DNA of 20,405 nucleotides from a virus. The stretch spans positions 1 to 20,405 of the IMG/VR virus record IMGVR_UViG_3300042924_003254, one strand, 5' to 3'. Below are positions 1-6,600 of this stretch, in pieces; the stretch's first letter is position 1, and every line of letters begins with the position of its first letter. The notes beneath the pieces are model-generated. The model did not search any database, had not been told where the DNA came from, and saw nothing but the letters and a program-made list of their open reading frames with translations. Position numbers and translations under genes: made by a program.

Positions 1-495
1 GCGCTTTCCGATGCCCTTGCCAACCCGACGCTGACGGGGATCGCGATTCACAAACAGCAGGCCACCATGGGCTTTGCGGCTCCTGGCGCACAGATGATCG
101 CCGGCATGTTCCTGGGGTTGCTCCAGGGCAACCCAAAGGCCGTGAACTACCTGGAGCTGACTTTCGGATCCAGCGAGGGGAACATCCTGGTCACCGTCCA
201 CCGCCCCGGCGGAGCCACGCCTCACAACCTGCGTGCCCTGGCGGAGCAGGAGGCCAGGGAGGCGAAGCAGGAGGCCGAGTGCCTGCGGGGCGATCTGGCG
301 ACAGCCAGGGAGGCCGTCAGGCGCCTGGTGCGCTGGCTCGAAGGCGCTGAAGGCTGCGACCTCGGGGTAGTGAGGGCTGTCCACTTGTGGGCCATCGAAA
401 ACCACATGGCTGACCCGCTGCCGCCGCTGCCGGAACGGTTGGCAAAGCCGGACGCAGCCATCATCCCAGCCCCAACCCCCGAAGCCACCCCATAA
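1..495 (+). CDS. Partial hypothetical coiled-coil protein, open at the left window edge
   Basis: The reading frame is open from base 1, so the true start may lie outside the window; the first in-window ATG is at 67. Numbering from that ATG (142 residues), the protein has a small hydrophobic stretch near residues 8-22, a short segment around NYLELTFG, then a strongly charged heptad-like helix at about residues 60-95 rich in Ala, Glu, Arg and Leu. The tail is Pro/Ala-rich. I recall phage proteins with a comparable NYLE...TPHNLR segment followed by a coiled coil, but none with an assigned function, and that recollection is unverified. The last 35 bases overlap the end of a minus-strand ORF. It has the same orientation as the 69-residue gene and the methyltransferase to its right, from which it is separated by about 230 bp. 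Confidence 0.6.
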   Translation, partial: ALSDALANPTLTGIAIHKQQATMGFAAPGAQMIAGMFLGLLQGNPKAVNYLELTFGSSEGNILVTVHRPGGATPHNLRALAEQEAREAKQEAECLRGDLATAREAVRRLVRWLEGAEGCDLGVVRAVHLWAIENHMADPLPPLPERLAKPDAAIIPAPTPEATP

Positions 496-727
496 CCCCA
501 CGGCCCGGCCGCTCCAGCGCCGCCACCTGTGCTTCCAGCTCCAGCAGTCGCCCCATCTGGCGCTTCAGGGCCTGCGCGTGGTTCACCTGAGCCGCCAGAC
601 TGAGGGTGAGCTGCCGCTCCAGCTCTTCACGCGAGAGCCGCGGCACCGCCCGCCGGGCCGCCTCGAAGTGACAGGCGGCCGATGGGCTGACATCGGGATC
701 AAGCCAAACAGATTCGTTTTCAACCAT
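461..727 (-). CDS. Hypothetical small coiled-coil protein (88 aa)
   Basis: This ORF runs from ATG 727 to TGA 461; a GTG at 739 would add four residues. The protein has an acidic N-terminus (VENESVWLDPDVSPSA), then a long amphipathic Leu/Glu/Arg helix starting at SREELERQLTLSL and continuing to AALERP, and ends in a Gly-rich tail. The helix looks like a genuine coiled coil rather than the Arg/Pro/Gly-rich sequence typical of antisense ORFs here. It is the best coding candidate for the 230 bp between the two plus-strand genes. Points against it: it opposes both neighbours, overlaps the left gene by 35 bp, and has no clear ribosome-binding site. Function is unknown. Confidence 0.4.
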   Translation of the reverse strand: MVENESVWLDPDVSPSAACHFEAARRAVPRLSREELERQLTLSLAAQVNHAQALKRQMGRLLELEAQVAALERPGRGVMGWLRGLGLG

Positions 728-935
728 GTCCACCACCACGCCCGTCGCAGCTCAGCCTCCACAGTCTGATGAAGAGGCCTACGTGCTGCTGCACCAGGAC
801 ACCGGCGCGGTCTTGTACTCGACCCATGCCACCGCCGCCACAGTCCACCGGGCAAACCAGAGCCTCGGGAAGTGCGGTGTGCGACATCGGTACGTGGCTG
901 CCAGGCTGCTGCCGCATGGGGATGTGGAGGCGTGA
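726..935 (+). CDS. Hypothetical small protein (69 aa) upstream of the methyltransferase
   Basis: The ATG at 726 opens a 69-residue protein without membrane segments; its middle reads EEAYVLLHQDTGAVLYST and its end reads ARLLPHGDVEA. The stop codon TGA (933-935) overlaps the GTG start of the adenine methyltransferase at 932 as GTGA, so the two are probably translationally coupled. Its C-terminal codons lie in a 23-bp sequence repeated after the methyltransferase (see the direct repeats), so this gene was probably the original recipient of the methyltransferase insertion. The ATG lies in CATG, overlapping the ATG of the opposing small ORF. No function is recognised; the sequence looks like a small compact domain. 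Confidence 0.6.
   Translation: MSTTTPVAAQPPQSDEEAYVLLHQDTGAVLYSTHATAATVHRANQSLGKCGVRHRYVAARLLPHGDVEA
900..922 (+). repeat. 23-bp direct repeat, left copy
   Basis: This copy is identical to 1975-1997. It begins on a codon boundary of the 69-residue gene and encodes its near-terminal residues ARLLPHG plus two bases. The identity stops on both sides: base 899 differs from 1974 and base 923 differs from 1998. Together the two copies bracket the whole methyltransferase gene, with 1075 bp between equivalent positions. Confidence 0.9.
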
Positions 936-1969
936 CGCTGGCCGCCCCCTTCCCCTACTTCGGTGGCAAGCGTCGCGCAGCCGCCCGAATCTGGCAGGCC
1001 TTCGGCGATCCCGCTGGCTATGTCGAGCCGTTCGCCGGATCGGCTGCAGTGCTGCTGGCCCGGCCTGCATTCACCGGCCGCCGGGTTGAGACCCTGAATG
1101 ATGCGGACGGCTGGCTGGTGAACGCCTGGCGTGCCATTCAGCTCAGCCCTGCCGAGGTGGCCCGGCACGCATGGGGGCCCGTGGCTGAGATCGACTATCA
1201 CGCTCGGCTGGCCTGGCTACAACAGCGCCGCACGCCCGATCTGGTGGCATGGCTGGAAGGCGACCCGGAGGCGCACGACGCCAAGGCGGCTGGGTGGTGG
1301 CTCTACGTGGTGGCCTGCGGCATTGGCGACCCGTTCGGTCCTGGCCCTTGGCGGGTGGTGGATCGCCATCTCCGCAAGCTGCCGCACCTGGGGAATGCAG
1401 GGAGGGGCGTGAACCGTGAGCTGCCGCACCTGGGGAATGCAGGGATGGGCGTGAACCGTGAGCTGCCGCACCTGGGGGATGCCGGGAAGGGCGTGAACCG
1501 TGAGCTGCCGCACCTGGGGGATGCCGGGAAGGGCCAGCTTGAGGTCTACATGGGGCAGCTTGCTGATCGCCTTCGCCGCGTGCGCATCACCTGCGGATCA
1601 TGGGAGCGGGTAGTGAAGCCATCTGTCACCCGCAGCGGCACCGGTGGCGATGGCACGCGAGCGATCTTCCTGGATCCGCCCTATGCCACCTCAGGCGACC
1701 TCTACGCCCACGTGGATGCCGATGTGGGCCTGGCCGTGCGCGAATGGTGCGCCACGGCGCCGCGTGAGCTGCGCTTGATTCTCTGCGGCTACGACACCGA
1801 GCACGATGCTCTGCTGGCCCGTGGCTGGTCTGTCACCGAGGGGAAGGCAGGCAGAGGAGCTGGCTACAGCACCAACGGGTTTAATGGCCGCCGGGAGCGG
1901 CTGTGGTTGTCGCCGGCCTGTATTGGCACGACTCAGCCCGACCTGTTCAGCTCAGGCTGCGCAGCATGA
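932..1969 (+). CDS. Dam-like (D12 class) DNA adenine N6-methyltransferase with internal repeats
   Basis: This enzyme is predicted to transfer a methyl group from S-adenosylmethionine to adenine N6 in DNA; in phages this commonly protects against host restriction. I place the start at GTG 932 (345 aa) because it gives a GTGA overlap with the upstream gene and puts the conserved PFPYFGGK motif at residues 6-13; an upstream ATG at 872 would add 20 unlikely residues. Visible motifs are PYFGGK, the SAM-binding VEPFAGSAAV (31-40) and the catalytic DPPY (248-251), in the order of the alpha group, which places the target recognition region between them. That interval contains three full and one partial copy of a 14-residue repeat (150-202), which is odd for the family core. 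The C-terminus has the expected GYSTNGF...RERLWLSP ending. The target site cannot be predicted. Confidence 0.92.
   Translation: MTLAAPFPYFGGKRRAAARIWQAFGDPAGYVEPFAGSAAVLLARPAFTGRRVETLNDADGWLVNAWRAIQLSPAEVARHAWGPVAEIDYHARLAWLQQRRTPDLVAWLEGDPEAHDAKAAGWWLYVVACGIGDPFGPGPWRVVDRHLRKLPHLGNAGRGVNRELPHLGNAGMGVNRELPHLGDAGKGVNRELPHLGDAGKGQLEVYMGQLADRLRRVRITCGSWERVVKPSVTRSGTGGDGTRAIFLDPPYATSGDLYAHVDADVGLAVREWCATAPRELRLILCGYDTEHDALLARGWSVTEGKAGRGAGYSTNGFNGRRERLWLSPACIGTTQPDLFSSGCAA
1379..1537 (+). repeat. 42-bp in-frame tandem repeats inside the methyltransferase
   Basis: Units begin at 1379, 1421, 1463 and 1505; the last is partial (33 bp). Each full unit is 42 bp and encodes LPHLG(N/D)AG(R/M/K)GVNRE. 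Units 1 and 2 carry GNAG while units 3 and 4 carry GDAG, so the array looks built by duplication of adjacent units. Unit length is a multiple of three, so copy-number changes would keep the gene in frame. There are no spacers, which excludes a CRISPR array. Confidence 0.95.
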
Positions 1970-2016
1970 TCACCGCCAGGCTGCTGCCGCATGGGGAGAG
2001 GGAGGCAGACGCCTAG
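1966..2016 (+). pseudogene. 16-codon remnant of a duplicated C-terminus
   Basis: An ATG overlapping the methyltransferase stop (ATGA, 1966-1969) opens a 16-codon frame encoding MITARLLPHGEREADA, ending at TAG 2014-2016. The core ARLLPHG matches the C-terminus of the 69-residue gene upstream, in the same codon phase. It is best read as the displaced original 3' end of that gene, left behind when the methyltransferase entered. It could still be translated by coupling, but it is too short to assign a function. Its TAG overlaps the TAG of the opposing peptidase gene in the palindrome CTAG (2013-2016). Confidence 0.55.
1975..1997 (+). repeat. 23-bp direct repeat, right copy
   Basis: This copy is identical to 900-922 and codon-aligned in the 16-codon remnant frame. 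It begins 5 bases after the methyltransferase stop codon. Confidence 0.9.
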
Positions 2017-2747
2017 CTAAACAACCAGGCCCAGCCGGTACCAGCCCCCTCGGCCTCCCATCGCGGGTTGAAGTTGCGGTAGCTGTAGCGAAGCCCCCGC
2101 CCGCTGGTCCCGCCGCTGCGCAGCCAGCCGCCGTTGATCAGATCGAGCTCGCCGAACGGATCCATCACGTTCCAGGCGTGCGCATCGAACCCGCAGCAGG
2201 CCAGCCAGTGGCCACCGCCGCTAGGTGCGCTGACGTGCCCCCGGTGCAGGTATCCCATCGCCAGGGGCAGGCCGGCCCGGATCTCCGCCTGGGCTTGGGA
2301 GGCTGAGCAGTTCCGAACAAACCGCGCCTTGACCCGCAGCTCCGCCAATGCCGCCTGGTGCGTTGCCTGGCTGGTGGTGTCCCCGTGCCGGCGGACGACC
2401 TTCAGGTAGTCGGTGTCGTCTTTGATGCCGCCCACCCCCAGGTAGGCCAGGCACATGGCAATCGCGCTGGTTTGGCACTGCCGCCAGCCCTCGGGGCCGT
2501 CGCTGGCGTTGATCTGTGAGAAGTAGGGAAAGCCCGTGAGCGGGTTGGTGGGCCGGGGCGCCGGCGGCTTGGGGGACGCCGCCGGGCTCCCTTTGGCACG
2601 CCAGTCCACGGTAAAGGCCTGCCGCTGCTCAGGGGTCAGGCGGGCATCGTGAGCGGAGAGAGCAGCCAGCTGATGGGGCTCCAGCTTGCCGGTCCTGACG
2701 GCATGCTCGACAGCGGCGCGGATTGAGGCGGTGGTAGGGTTGCTCAT
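2013..2747 (-). CDS. C39-like papain-fold cysteine peptidase, candidate endolysin
   Basis: This 244-residue protein has no signal peptide. Residues 1-50 form a helical N-terminal region, 51-70 a Pro/Ala linker, and 71-244 a C39-family-like peptidase domain. The likely catalytic set is visible: Gln90-Cys91 in GWRQCQTSAIAM, His180 in GGGHWLACCGFD, and Asp196 in NVMDPFGE. C39-like and related papain-fold domains occur in phage lysins and tail-associated peptidoglycan hydrolases. As the last gene of the late operon, after the fibre, an endolysin role is plausible, but no cell-wall-binding domain is recognisable. The ATG at 2747 lies 22 bp after the fibre stop, with no clear Shine-Dalgarno sequence. 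Fold assignment is fairly secure; substrate is inferred. Confidence 0.75.
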   Translation of the reverse strand: MSNPTTASIRAAVEHAVRTGKLEPHQLAALSAHDARLTPEQRQAFTVDWRAKGSPAASPKPPAPRPTNPLTGFPYFSQINASDGPEGWRQCQTSAIAMCLAYLGVGGIKDDTDYLKVVRRHGDTTSQATHQAALAELRVKARFVRNCSASQAQAEIRAGLPLAMGYLHRGHVSAPSGGGHWLACCGFDAHAWNVMDPFGELDLINGGWLRSGGTSGRGLRYSYRNFNPRWEAEGAGTGWAWLFS

Positions 2748-3621: not shown

Positions 3622-6600
3622 TAGGTGACCTCCCGACCAAATCCAATAGCAGTATAGTTAAACTGTCTGGCCACAGCCGCTCCGGCGCTGTTTCTGAAGG
3701 TGAGGCTAAAGCCCGATCGCGTGATCGATGCAGGATTGATGACCCAGTATTCGCCCGCCGCCATGTTGTACCCCGTGACACCAATGTTCGGCGGCTCGTA
3801 AAATCGCTCGGCAAAGGTCACCGCATGGGTGCTCGCCGGGGCTGACAGGGTGCCGGACTGCTCGATGCGTTGCTGCAGCTCCATCTCAGCGCCGAGCTCT
3901 TCGACCAGGATGTTCTGTGAACTGTCGCCGCTGGTGGCTAGCAACTTGAATTGAAAACCCCGGCCCCGCACGATCCCGTTCGCCACCTCGCGCCATTCGG
4001 ACCACTGCGGGGATCCAGATGGATCGCCTTGCGTAGACCGTACCAGCAGCGCAGCATCCACGGCGCTTATAAAATCGCCGTCAAAATCATCCGCCGCATC
4101 GTCAAATAGCCCAGTGCGACTATCAAATAAGTCGAGCTGGCTTGTTGCTCGCGTCTGCAACCGGCGCCGTATGTTTACATCATATACGCCATTCATTGAG
4201 TATGTAGAGCCGAACTCATATTCGCCCTGCGCCGCGACGGGCTCTGTCAGTGCGGTGCTAGGATCATCAATCATTCCCGCCCTAGAGTCAACCAAGCCTT
4301 CGGCTGAGTCCCACAGGGACACACTACCTATGATTAGCGCGTCAAAGTATTCGCTATAAAACATATTCAACCCGTTGCCATTGAATGGCGGGCTCTCCGC
4401 ATCTTCCGCGTAGGTCTTAACCAGGAGGCGCGGCTGCGGCTGCGGTAAGTCGGTGACCACGTAGGCCACTTCGGGGGACAGCCGCCCACCATCATCCTCG
4501 AACCTCAGCAGGTAGCTGCCCTCCAGCAACGGCACCTGTTTTTGCACCTCATTGCCGGCGGCGGCGTGCGCAATGCTCGTCGCCTCCCCCCACCCCGGGG
4601 TGTCGAGGCGTGAGCTGTGCCGGATCTGCACGCGCCCGCCCACCCGCACGTCCAGGTCGCTGGCGCGATCCCAGCTCAGGATTCCGCTGGCCTCGTCAAT
4701 CGGCATCAGCGAAGCGCCAGTCACGTTTACGGGCGGCGCCGTTTTCCCAAAGGTGACGAATCGCAACTGGGCTGGCCGACTGAAAATGATCCCCGTCTTT
4801 ACCGAGGCCACCAGGATTTCGTAGGTTCCCGCCTGGGTGTCGAGGATCTCAATGGATGGCGCGCCGACATTGCGCTGCTCCCAGTTCCCTGGGATTCGGC
4901 GATAGCTGACCCGGTAGGTGTTGACCCCTGGCACCATGCTCCAGCTGAGCTGCAACTTGGCCGCGACCCGGCCGCCGGCTTCGTAAAGCACCTCTGCGCC
5001 GGTGAGGTTCTGCGGCGGGTTCGGGACAATATCGAGGTCGGTGATGTCGCGCTTGGTCAGCGCCAAGCCTTGTTCGACGAAGTTGTACTTGCTGGGGTTG
5101 TGAGCCAGGGCCGTGATTGGGTATCGCACCCCGTCAGACTCTCCCACGCCAAGCACGCGCCAAAGCGCGGCCAAAATGTTGGAGGTCTCCCAAATCCAGA
5201 TCGAGTTAGCCTGCGGTGCCGAGCTGAACGCGGGCGACACCTCCACCACGTTGCCCGAGATTGACACAACCGGTCGGGTCTCCACTGTGGCATTGGTGAG
5301 GATCACGCTGAGCGTGGGGTTACTGGCCATGGCGAGCCCCGCGGCATCGTCCAAGGTGATTGCGGTGGTGGTGGCTGCTGCAATGGCACCGCCACGGCGA
5401 GATCCCGCCCGGAGGGGGTCGGCGATCTGGACGATCTGCCCAGGCCGCACGACGGCTCCGGCTGCGAGGTTCGAGGTGAACGCGACTACCTCGCCTTCGT
5501 TGGCCTCGCAATAAAGGAGCCACTTCCCGAGGCGCCGGGCTTGGCCTTGGCTGGTGCAGGCAAGCGCCTCGATCTCGACCGTTACCACCCCATAACGAGC
5601 GATGCCGGCGGCATCCTCGACTACCTCGAAATTTTCGCTTCGGAGGTCCAGATCCTGATACCTGACCACGGCCACGGTTGGCCGGGTCTTCAGGCTGCTG
5701 CCGCTGTAGCTGAAGCCCTCGGGGCCGACATTGGCCAGGGTGAACGAAAACGACGGATCGGCCGGGCGGTCCTGGGAGATCGTGAGCGCACCACTGGCCC
5801 AATAGGGCATGCAACGCATCACGGAACACAGATCGGCGATCAGCCGATAGGCATCATCAGCGGTTTGAATGTTGGCATTGCAGCTAAAGCGAGGCTCCCA
5901 GCCGCCAAATCCATCAGGCACCAGCGCCGAGGCGTACTGGCTGGCGGAATAGAAAGCCCACCGATCGAGCTTACTGGCGTCGAGGTGATCGCCAAAGCCA
6001 AACCGGCGGGAGATGAGCAATACCCACAAGCACCAAGCGGGGTCGCTCGTCCACTGCGCGGCGCCGAATGTTCCATTCCAAACGCCGGAATAGATCAATC
6101 GCCCGGTGGCGTTGTCAACCGTGGCATTGCTGGGGATCTGCACTTTCAGCCCCCGCACCCGGCAGCTCCGGGAAGGAATCGCCCCGTTGAACTGGTCGGC
6201 TTCGATTCTGTATCCTATTACTGCAGTATTGGGGTAAGCCAGCTTGGCGTAAATGATCTCCGAAAAACTGCTCCAGCTAAACGCATTGTTTACTTTTGAG
6301 CTTGTGCTGTCAGGGGTAACCCGATTTACCTGAATATCAACCGGGAACGGGCCTGACAAGTTGATTAGATATTGCCGCTGGTATTGCTGCGACGTTCTTC
6401 CCGTGATAATGTCTTCAAGCGCGAGGTAATAGCCGCCGCCGTTGTACTGAACATAAATTTGCAAGTAAACACTTGAGCCCAGTACGTCGTTTTTATCGGT
6501 AAACTCTTGCAATGTCGGCAGGGTCACGATCACCCGAGCGGCATCGCATGGCTGGGTGATCGTGCGAGTGACCGGTTCTAAATCCGTAACCACTACGCCG

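Follow-up and report, generated by a model that had tools for sequence, protein, structure and literature searches.

Apparent exchange of methyltransferase bodies between constant ends in phages, seen from an insertion scar in the 3' end of a small gene

In T-even phages, Tetart et al. in 1998 are said to have found that adhesin specificity is swapped by recombination between conserved motifs. For orphan DNA methyltransferases (MTases) of phages, a protective role against host restriction is known, and in the pan-genomes of cryoconite phages they topped the annotated genes of the variable islands in frequency; in one phage region, near-identical core stretches enclosed different MTases or some other gene, and recombination was proposed (PMC7468147). 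Rapid variation of phage MTases and its tie to recombination are already published (PMC7468147). The replacement of one enzyme by an unrelated one without damage to the neighbours is nevertheless seldom visible. At the locus described here the joints can be read, as empty sites, the locus of origin, a transferred copy still holding part of its former neighbour and two enzyme classes in the same frame are all at hand. As far as open papers show, what is new is the definition of the seams to the base, the second position with its terminase remnant and the shared clamp-like tail.

The window, that is, the whole stretch of DNA analysed here, spans 20,405 bp and makes up an IMG/VR record in full. 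It is a fragment of a tailed phage whose minus strand encodes portal, capsid, tail tube, tape measure and tail tip proteins, and it ends in the portal gene. All sequences compared, the window included, are metagenome assemblies. The features used below are as follows (L numbers denote other contigs).

464 to 739, minus strand: p92, a conserved protein of 92 aa, divergent neighbour of the small gene
726 to 935, plus strand: small gene (open reading frame), 69 aa, product ending in ARLLPHGDVEA, with relatives in L003, L084, L086 and L087
898 to 931, plus strand: copy 1 of the target duplication (core 900-922)
924 to 943, plus strand: constant 5' end and left junction, GTGGAGGC followed by GTGACGCTGGCC, 20 bp identical to L131-L133
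932 to 1969, plus strand: predicted Dam/D12-type DNA adenine MTase, 345 aa, DPPY motif
933 to 1928, plus strand: putative exchangeable MTase body, 91% identical to L004
1372 to 1534, plus strand: 42-bp (14-aa) tandem repeats LPHLGnAGxGVNRe, four copies, low model confidence
1933 to 1985, plus strand: constant 3' end, 53 bp identical to L131-L133
1934 to 1948, plus strand: QPDLF codons (residues 335-339), candidate sliding-clamp-binding peptide
1966 to 1977, plus strand: remnant of a terL start, ATGATCACCGCC, with the right junction in CCGCC (1973-1977)
1966 to 2016, plus strand: chimeric 16-codon frame MITARLLPHGEREADA, terL start plus small-gene tail
1973 to 2006, plus strand: copy 2 of the target duplication (core 1975-1997)
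2013 to 2747, minus strand: C39-type endolysin (PF13529; phrog_10051, endolysin)

The small gene lies between p92, which is about 90-95% identical in L084, L086, L087 and L003 and had no family match in Pfam or PHROG, and the endolysin gene. Its TGA stop (933-935) overlaps the GTG start of the MTase, and no homologue was found in the phage GenBank collection. The endolysin allele varies, with a YkuD type in L087 and L131-L133 and an allele of matching sequence in L003, and the C39 and YkuD alleles combine freely with the MTase states. The C39 peptidase and YkuD L,D-transpeptidase bodies stand behind a conserved N-terminal stretch and represent another swapped body (window 2013-2747 and 2556-2754; L087 4928-5647; L133 5269-5988).

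The small gene was recovered without an MTase in four viral contigs (L003, L084, L086 and L087), and no MTase was found in these records. In L084, positions 465-931 and 1973-2770 of the window correspond to 40-503 and 470-1267, two stretches that overlap as neighbours, and the same holds for L086. Being collinear with the window on both flanks, L084 and L086 are, as judged from the alignments, exact empty sites. Their small-gene proteins end in ARLLPHGEVDADP and ARLLPHGEVEAGG, and beside a YkuD-type right neighbour the protein end reads ARLLPHGEVE(A/P)DQPPSCQTDT. As the MTase-free alleles carry the tail that follows the MTase in the window, this tail belongs to the small gene, whose natural 3' end has been replaced. 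An earlier note on this DNA had suggested that the 3' end of the small gene had received an adenine MTase and been duplicated in the process, and had named MTase-free alleles as the test: such alleles exist, with proteins ending in ARLLPHGEV-D/EA-type tails, and the empty sites bear the suggestion out.

The 23 identical bp that the note had seen at 900-922 and 1975-1997 (GCCAGGCTGCTGCCGCATGGGGA, spacing 1075 bp) are indeed present and form the core of a 34-bp duplication (898-931 and 1973-2006; 30/34 identical), with a 32-bp match at 91% around the repeat. No longer exact match is shared by the 200-bp stretches on either side of the MTase; 300 Markov resamplings of these stretches gave 13 bp at most, and none of 70 related MTase loci had flanking direct repeats above 11 bp. 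Since it exceeds all the resamplings and all these loci, the match is not due to chance. With the empty sites at hand, the repeat is the scar of an insertion. We rejected a mobile element bringing its own repeats, as the 70 related loci lack them. The insert consists only of the MTase reading frame and 12 bp of terL, with no transposase or integrase within it, in agreement with the note. The equal reading phase of the two copies, also described there, is real but uninformative, because the second frame takes its ATG from the start of terL, and it is a one-in-three coincidence that the duplicated tail falls in the same phase. The 16-codon frame said to be coupled to the MTase stop likewise exists, although it is probably a by-product of the insertion and not a gene; we rejected a displaced real gene at 1966-2016, since this frame joins the start of terL to the duplicated tail. 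Precise loss of the MTase through the repeat is plausible.

The origin of the insert can be read from the 12 bp at the MTase stop. This sequence, ATGATCACCGCC, corresponds to four codons at the start of the gene for the large terminase subunit (terL) and begins terL in L008-L010, L018, L068 and L069, whose MTase is of the window type (type A), and in L150-L154 with another type (type B, see below), the MTase before it ending in LFSSGCAA* or a near variant in both groups; terL of L149 starts with ATGATCAGCGCC. In all the type A contigs listed, a close relative of the window MTase lies directly before terL and ends in LFSSGCAA* or a near variant, as in the window, with the small-subunit gene terS upstream where the contig reaches that far (the identity of terL and terS was confirmed by PHROG and tblastn). 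The terL start in the insert thus points to a terS-MTase-terL locus as the source, from which the cassette, by its sequence, was joined via short homologies (13/14 bp on the left, 5 bp on the right). The left join lies within GGGGA-GTGGAGGC-GTGACGCTGGCC; L149 has the donor-type GGGGAGGTGAAGGCGTGACGCTGGCC at its terS end and matches the empty small gene at 13 of 14 positions over GGGGAGGTGgAGGC. The 25-mer across the right junction of the window was not found in other IMG/VR viral contigs, L131-L133 differing from it by one G/T in repeat copy 2. In nine loci, terS and terL adjoin without an MTase (e.g., with an ATGA overlap in L101). L101 and other capsid relatives of the window have this arrangement, and no MTase was found in 18 capsid-relative records searched whole. 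With the window ending in its portal gene, the phage's own terS-terL locus is no more than a possible source.

The contigs L131-L133 carry the same small gene with the same left and right joins, but their MTase is of the N6_N4 class (PF01555, 6.8e-41) and not of the D12 class. These three form one near-identical lineage (at least 99.9%), so that two independent lineages underlie the two-by-two pattern at the small-gene site. Positions 1929-2007 of the window and 5185-5263 of L133 are 93.7% identical, whereas the DNA of the two MTase genes could be aligned only over the last 41 bp. The constant 3' end runs through the MTase tail QPDLFSSGCAA*, across the terL start and into repeat copy 2. A pattern scan for it recovered 15 contigs, 12 terS-terL and three small-gene loci, to which the window adds the missing combination of position and enzyme. 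Relatives of MTase B also occur between the same terS and terL (L149-L154): L008 and L150 are near-identical before ATGACGCTGGCC, differing once in about 80 bp, and become identical where the MTase tail ends, with different enzymes in between. At a third position, before another terL family, either type was found (L004, L007 and others versus L155 and L157); the MTase of L004 adjoins a different terL, and its likeness to the window stops at 1928, at the start of the constant tail. Since two MTase classes sit in the same junctions both at the small-gene site and between terS and terL, we interpret these alignments as an exchange of MTase bodies that leaves the ends constant, at two positions in the genome. 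Homologous flanks around different genes (L008 versus L150; window versus L133) are what is seen in a mosaic phage module exchanged by recombination. Of the earlier cassette model, the insertion core stands; the unit itself is better described as an exchange slot, since an unrelated MTase occupies the same site elsewhere.

Several other observations were made in these contigs. At the left junction, a poly-G tract has eight G in L131 (~4197-4204) and nine in L132 and L133 (~4197-4205), this base being the sole difference between L131 and L132 in 8.2 kb. Eight G put the small gene and MTase B into one continuous frame, and nine shift the frame; the tract could be a phase-variable switch or assembly noise. 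MTase B contains a short tandem repeat, REYEDLR, in two full copies (L133 4860-4920), so that tandem repeats occur in both unrelated enzymes of the slot. In L133, a C5-cytosine methyltransferase gene (PF00145, 2700-3776) lies just upstream of p92, which suggests that DNA-modification genes collect at that end of the genome. In L070, the gene after MTase A (~533-1231), followed by terL, encodes a product ending in HQPDLFAGVAA. A Mom-like DNA modification family was matched once in the downstream set, and this match probably belongs to the L070 gene.

The window enzyme matched PF02086 (E=4e-6, 27.2 bits for a cutoff of 22) over positions 1-62 of 253 only, and phrog_56 at 1.3e-25, while its partial match to TIGR00571 (27.7 bits) was below the cut-off of 114.85. 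A search of solved structures by sequence gave no match, and the best match in the phage GenBank collection was a Mycobacterium prophage (66%). Its AlphaFold2 model (pTM 0.77) was matched by Foldseek to Escherichia coli Dam (E=2.6e-8, probability 1.00), as well as to DpnM and T4 Dam, so that the predicted fold is Dam-like. In the motif FLDPPYATSG, residues D248, P249, P250 and Y251 were invariant in 45 aligned sequences. From sequence and model, this enzyme is a predicted DNA adenine methyltransferase of the Dam/D12 class. It has the catalytic fold and the DPPY motif in common with E. coli Dam, DpnM and T4 Dam, and differs from the solved Dam structures in its low identity to them (~10-15%), a 14-aa repeat of variable number and the QPDLF-type C-terminal tail. 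The repeats, one to six copies of LPHLGnAGxGVNRe among close relatives (L004-L039, L008), lie in a stretch that the model predicts with low confidence, after motif I and before DPPY. In Dam enzymes, this interval holds target-recognition parts.

The C-terminal tail is shared beyond the closest relatives. Bacterial clamp-binding proteins have C-terminal peptides of the QL(S/D)LF type (PMC9690074). The QPDLF of the window fits the relaxed pattern Q-x-(S/D)-L-F, with P replacing L at position 2, and the model gives no fixed structure to this tail (pLDDT <50 for residues 335-345; MTase A only). With both classes taken together, 38 of 73 distinct MTase C-termini had a clamp-like motif in their last 22 residues, where the remainder of the proteins predicts 0.12; after clustering at 70% identity, Qx[SDET][LM][FL] was present in 6 of the 17 clusters, where shuffled tails predict 0.06. 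The patterns were chosen after the tails were seen, so that these expectations flatter the enrichment somewhat. The MTase tails QPDLF, QLSLL, QMDLF and QLEMF resemble the peptide of DnaN-binding proteins and, like it, lie in a C-terminal region, of low confidence in the MTase A model. No clamp-binding phage MTase was found in the literature (open papers). We hypothesize from this resemblance that the MTase tail docks to the sliding clamp, which would explain how enzymes work after an exchange and would tie phage anti-restriction to replication. Sharing of tails by recombination would explain identical tails in one locus, not differing versions of the motif in distant relatives. It is conceivable, though we consider it doubtful, that the slot works as a plug-in, the start region and the clamp-docking tail belonging to the locus and the body being replaceable, with the tail as both seam and clamp adaptor. 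If so, the tail would tie each incoming MTase to the replication clamp, and new phage DNA would be methylated at the fork.

We consider that the repeat is the scar of one insertion from a terS-MTase-terL locus, followed by a swap of the body (probability of about 0.8). A whole MTase gene with the first 12 bp of terL would have been copied from such a locus in a related phage or ancestor and joined into the 3' end of the small gene beside the endolysin, in the manner of template switching or of recombination at short homologies while phage DNA replicates. On the left, the join would have used GGGGAGGTGgAGGC, where the small gene and the end of terS agree in 13 of 14 bp, the NTGA coupling being kept at the start of the insert, and on the right CCGCC; as the right join is placed 34 bp upstream of the left one in the recipient sequence, 34 bp were duplicated. 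Later, in one of the two known lineages, recombination within the start region and the QPDLFSSGCAA tail, both of them constant, would have replaced the original body by an unrelated one, as in the terS-terL locus. Phages presumably benefit from a changed methylation specificity against host restriction. We infer this order, one insertion and then a swap, from the sharing of both joins.

A single clade of MTase-bearing alleles was not supported by the 450-bp upstream flank, on which the window grouped with the empty L086 (96/97). The MTase state thus changed at least twice or the flank recombined; loss in L086, two insertions at one spot and recombination of the flank are all possible. The grouping, requiring at least two changes, would suit an old MTase-bearing state that gave rise to the empty alleles when the MTase was excised precisely through the 23-bp repeats, the more so as the product would match an L086-like allele exactly. 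This is unlikely, since the terL remnant and the duplicated tail indicate that the gene was intact until the MTase was inserted into it, the four diverse empty alleles have ordinary 3' ends and a repeat of 23 bp is rather short for homologous loss to occur often. Separate site-specific insertions of two terS-terL cassettes, one with MTase A and one with MTase B, guided for instance by an HNH homing endonuclease, would account for identical junctions around different bodies and for the separation of the MTase lineages on the flank tree. HNH genes do occur upstream of terS (L008-L010, L018, L153, L154 and L101) and of the empty small gene in L003 (coordinates 2368-3354 in L008 and 174-470 in L003), and such an enzyme could promote the exchanges. 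Nevertheless, no HNH gene lies inside the cassette, short homology at both joins already explains the position, and the terS-terL locus, with its exchanged bodies and near-identical flanks, demonstrates a swap without a new insertion site; we regard two insertions as quite improbable. Least credible of all is an assembly artefact joining two phage genomes at 900-2000 through shared MTase ends. The record is metagenomic and the constant ends are common to several loci, but the remnant and junction recur with a different MTase in three other contigs from three other IMG datasets (L131-L133), the repeat copies have diverged (30/34), and both they and the tail show differences specific to the window.

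Two close relatives of the MTase occur in contigs of cyanobacterial MAGs (L135, Synechococcaceae, and L136), so that a cyanobacterial host is likely; a freshwater origin is a guess. By analogy with other phage orphan MTases, the window enzyme probably protects from host restriction. The slot lets phages exchange DNA-methylating enzymes, by which they probably evade bacterial defences.

The locus resembles the cryoconite phage islands in that varying MTases lie between near-identical flanks in both. It differs from them in that the boundaries are defined here to the base, that two unrelated classes are found at each of two positions and that the terL remnant reveals transfer between positions. 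With T-even adhesin swapping it has in common short conserved ends that let a variable part be replaced; here, in contrast, the replaced part is the whole body of an enzyme of a different class, and only the start-codon region and the last ~13 codons are constant.
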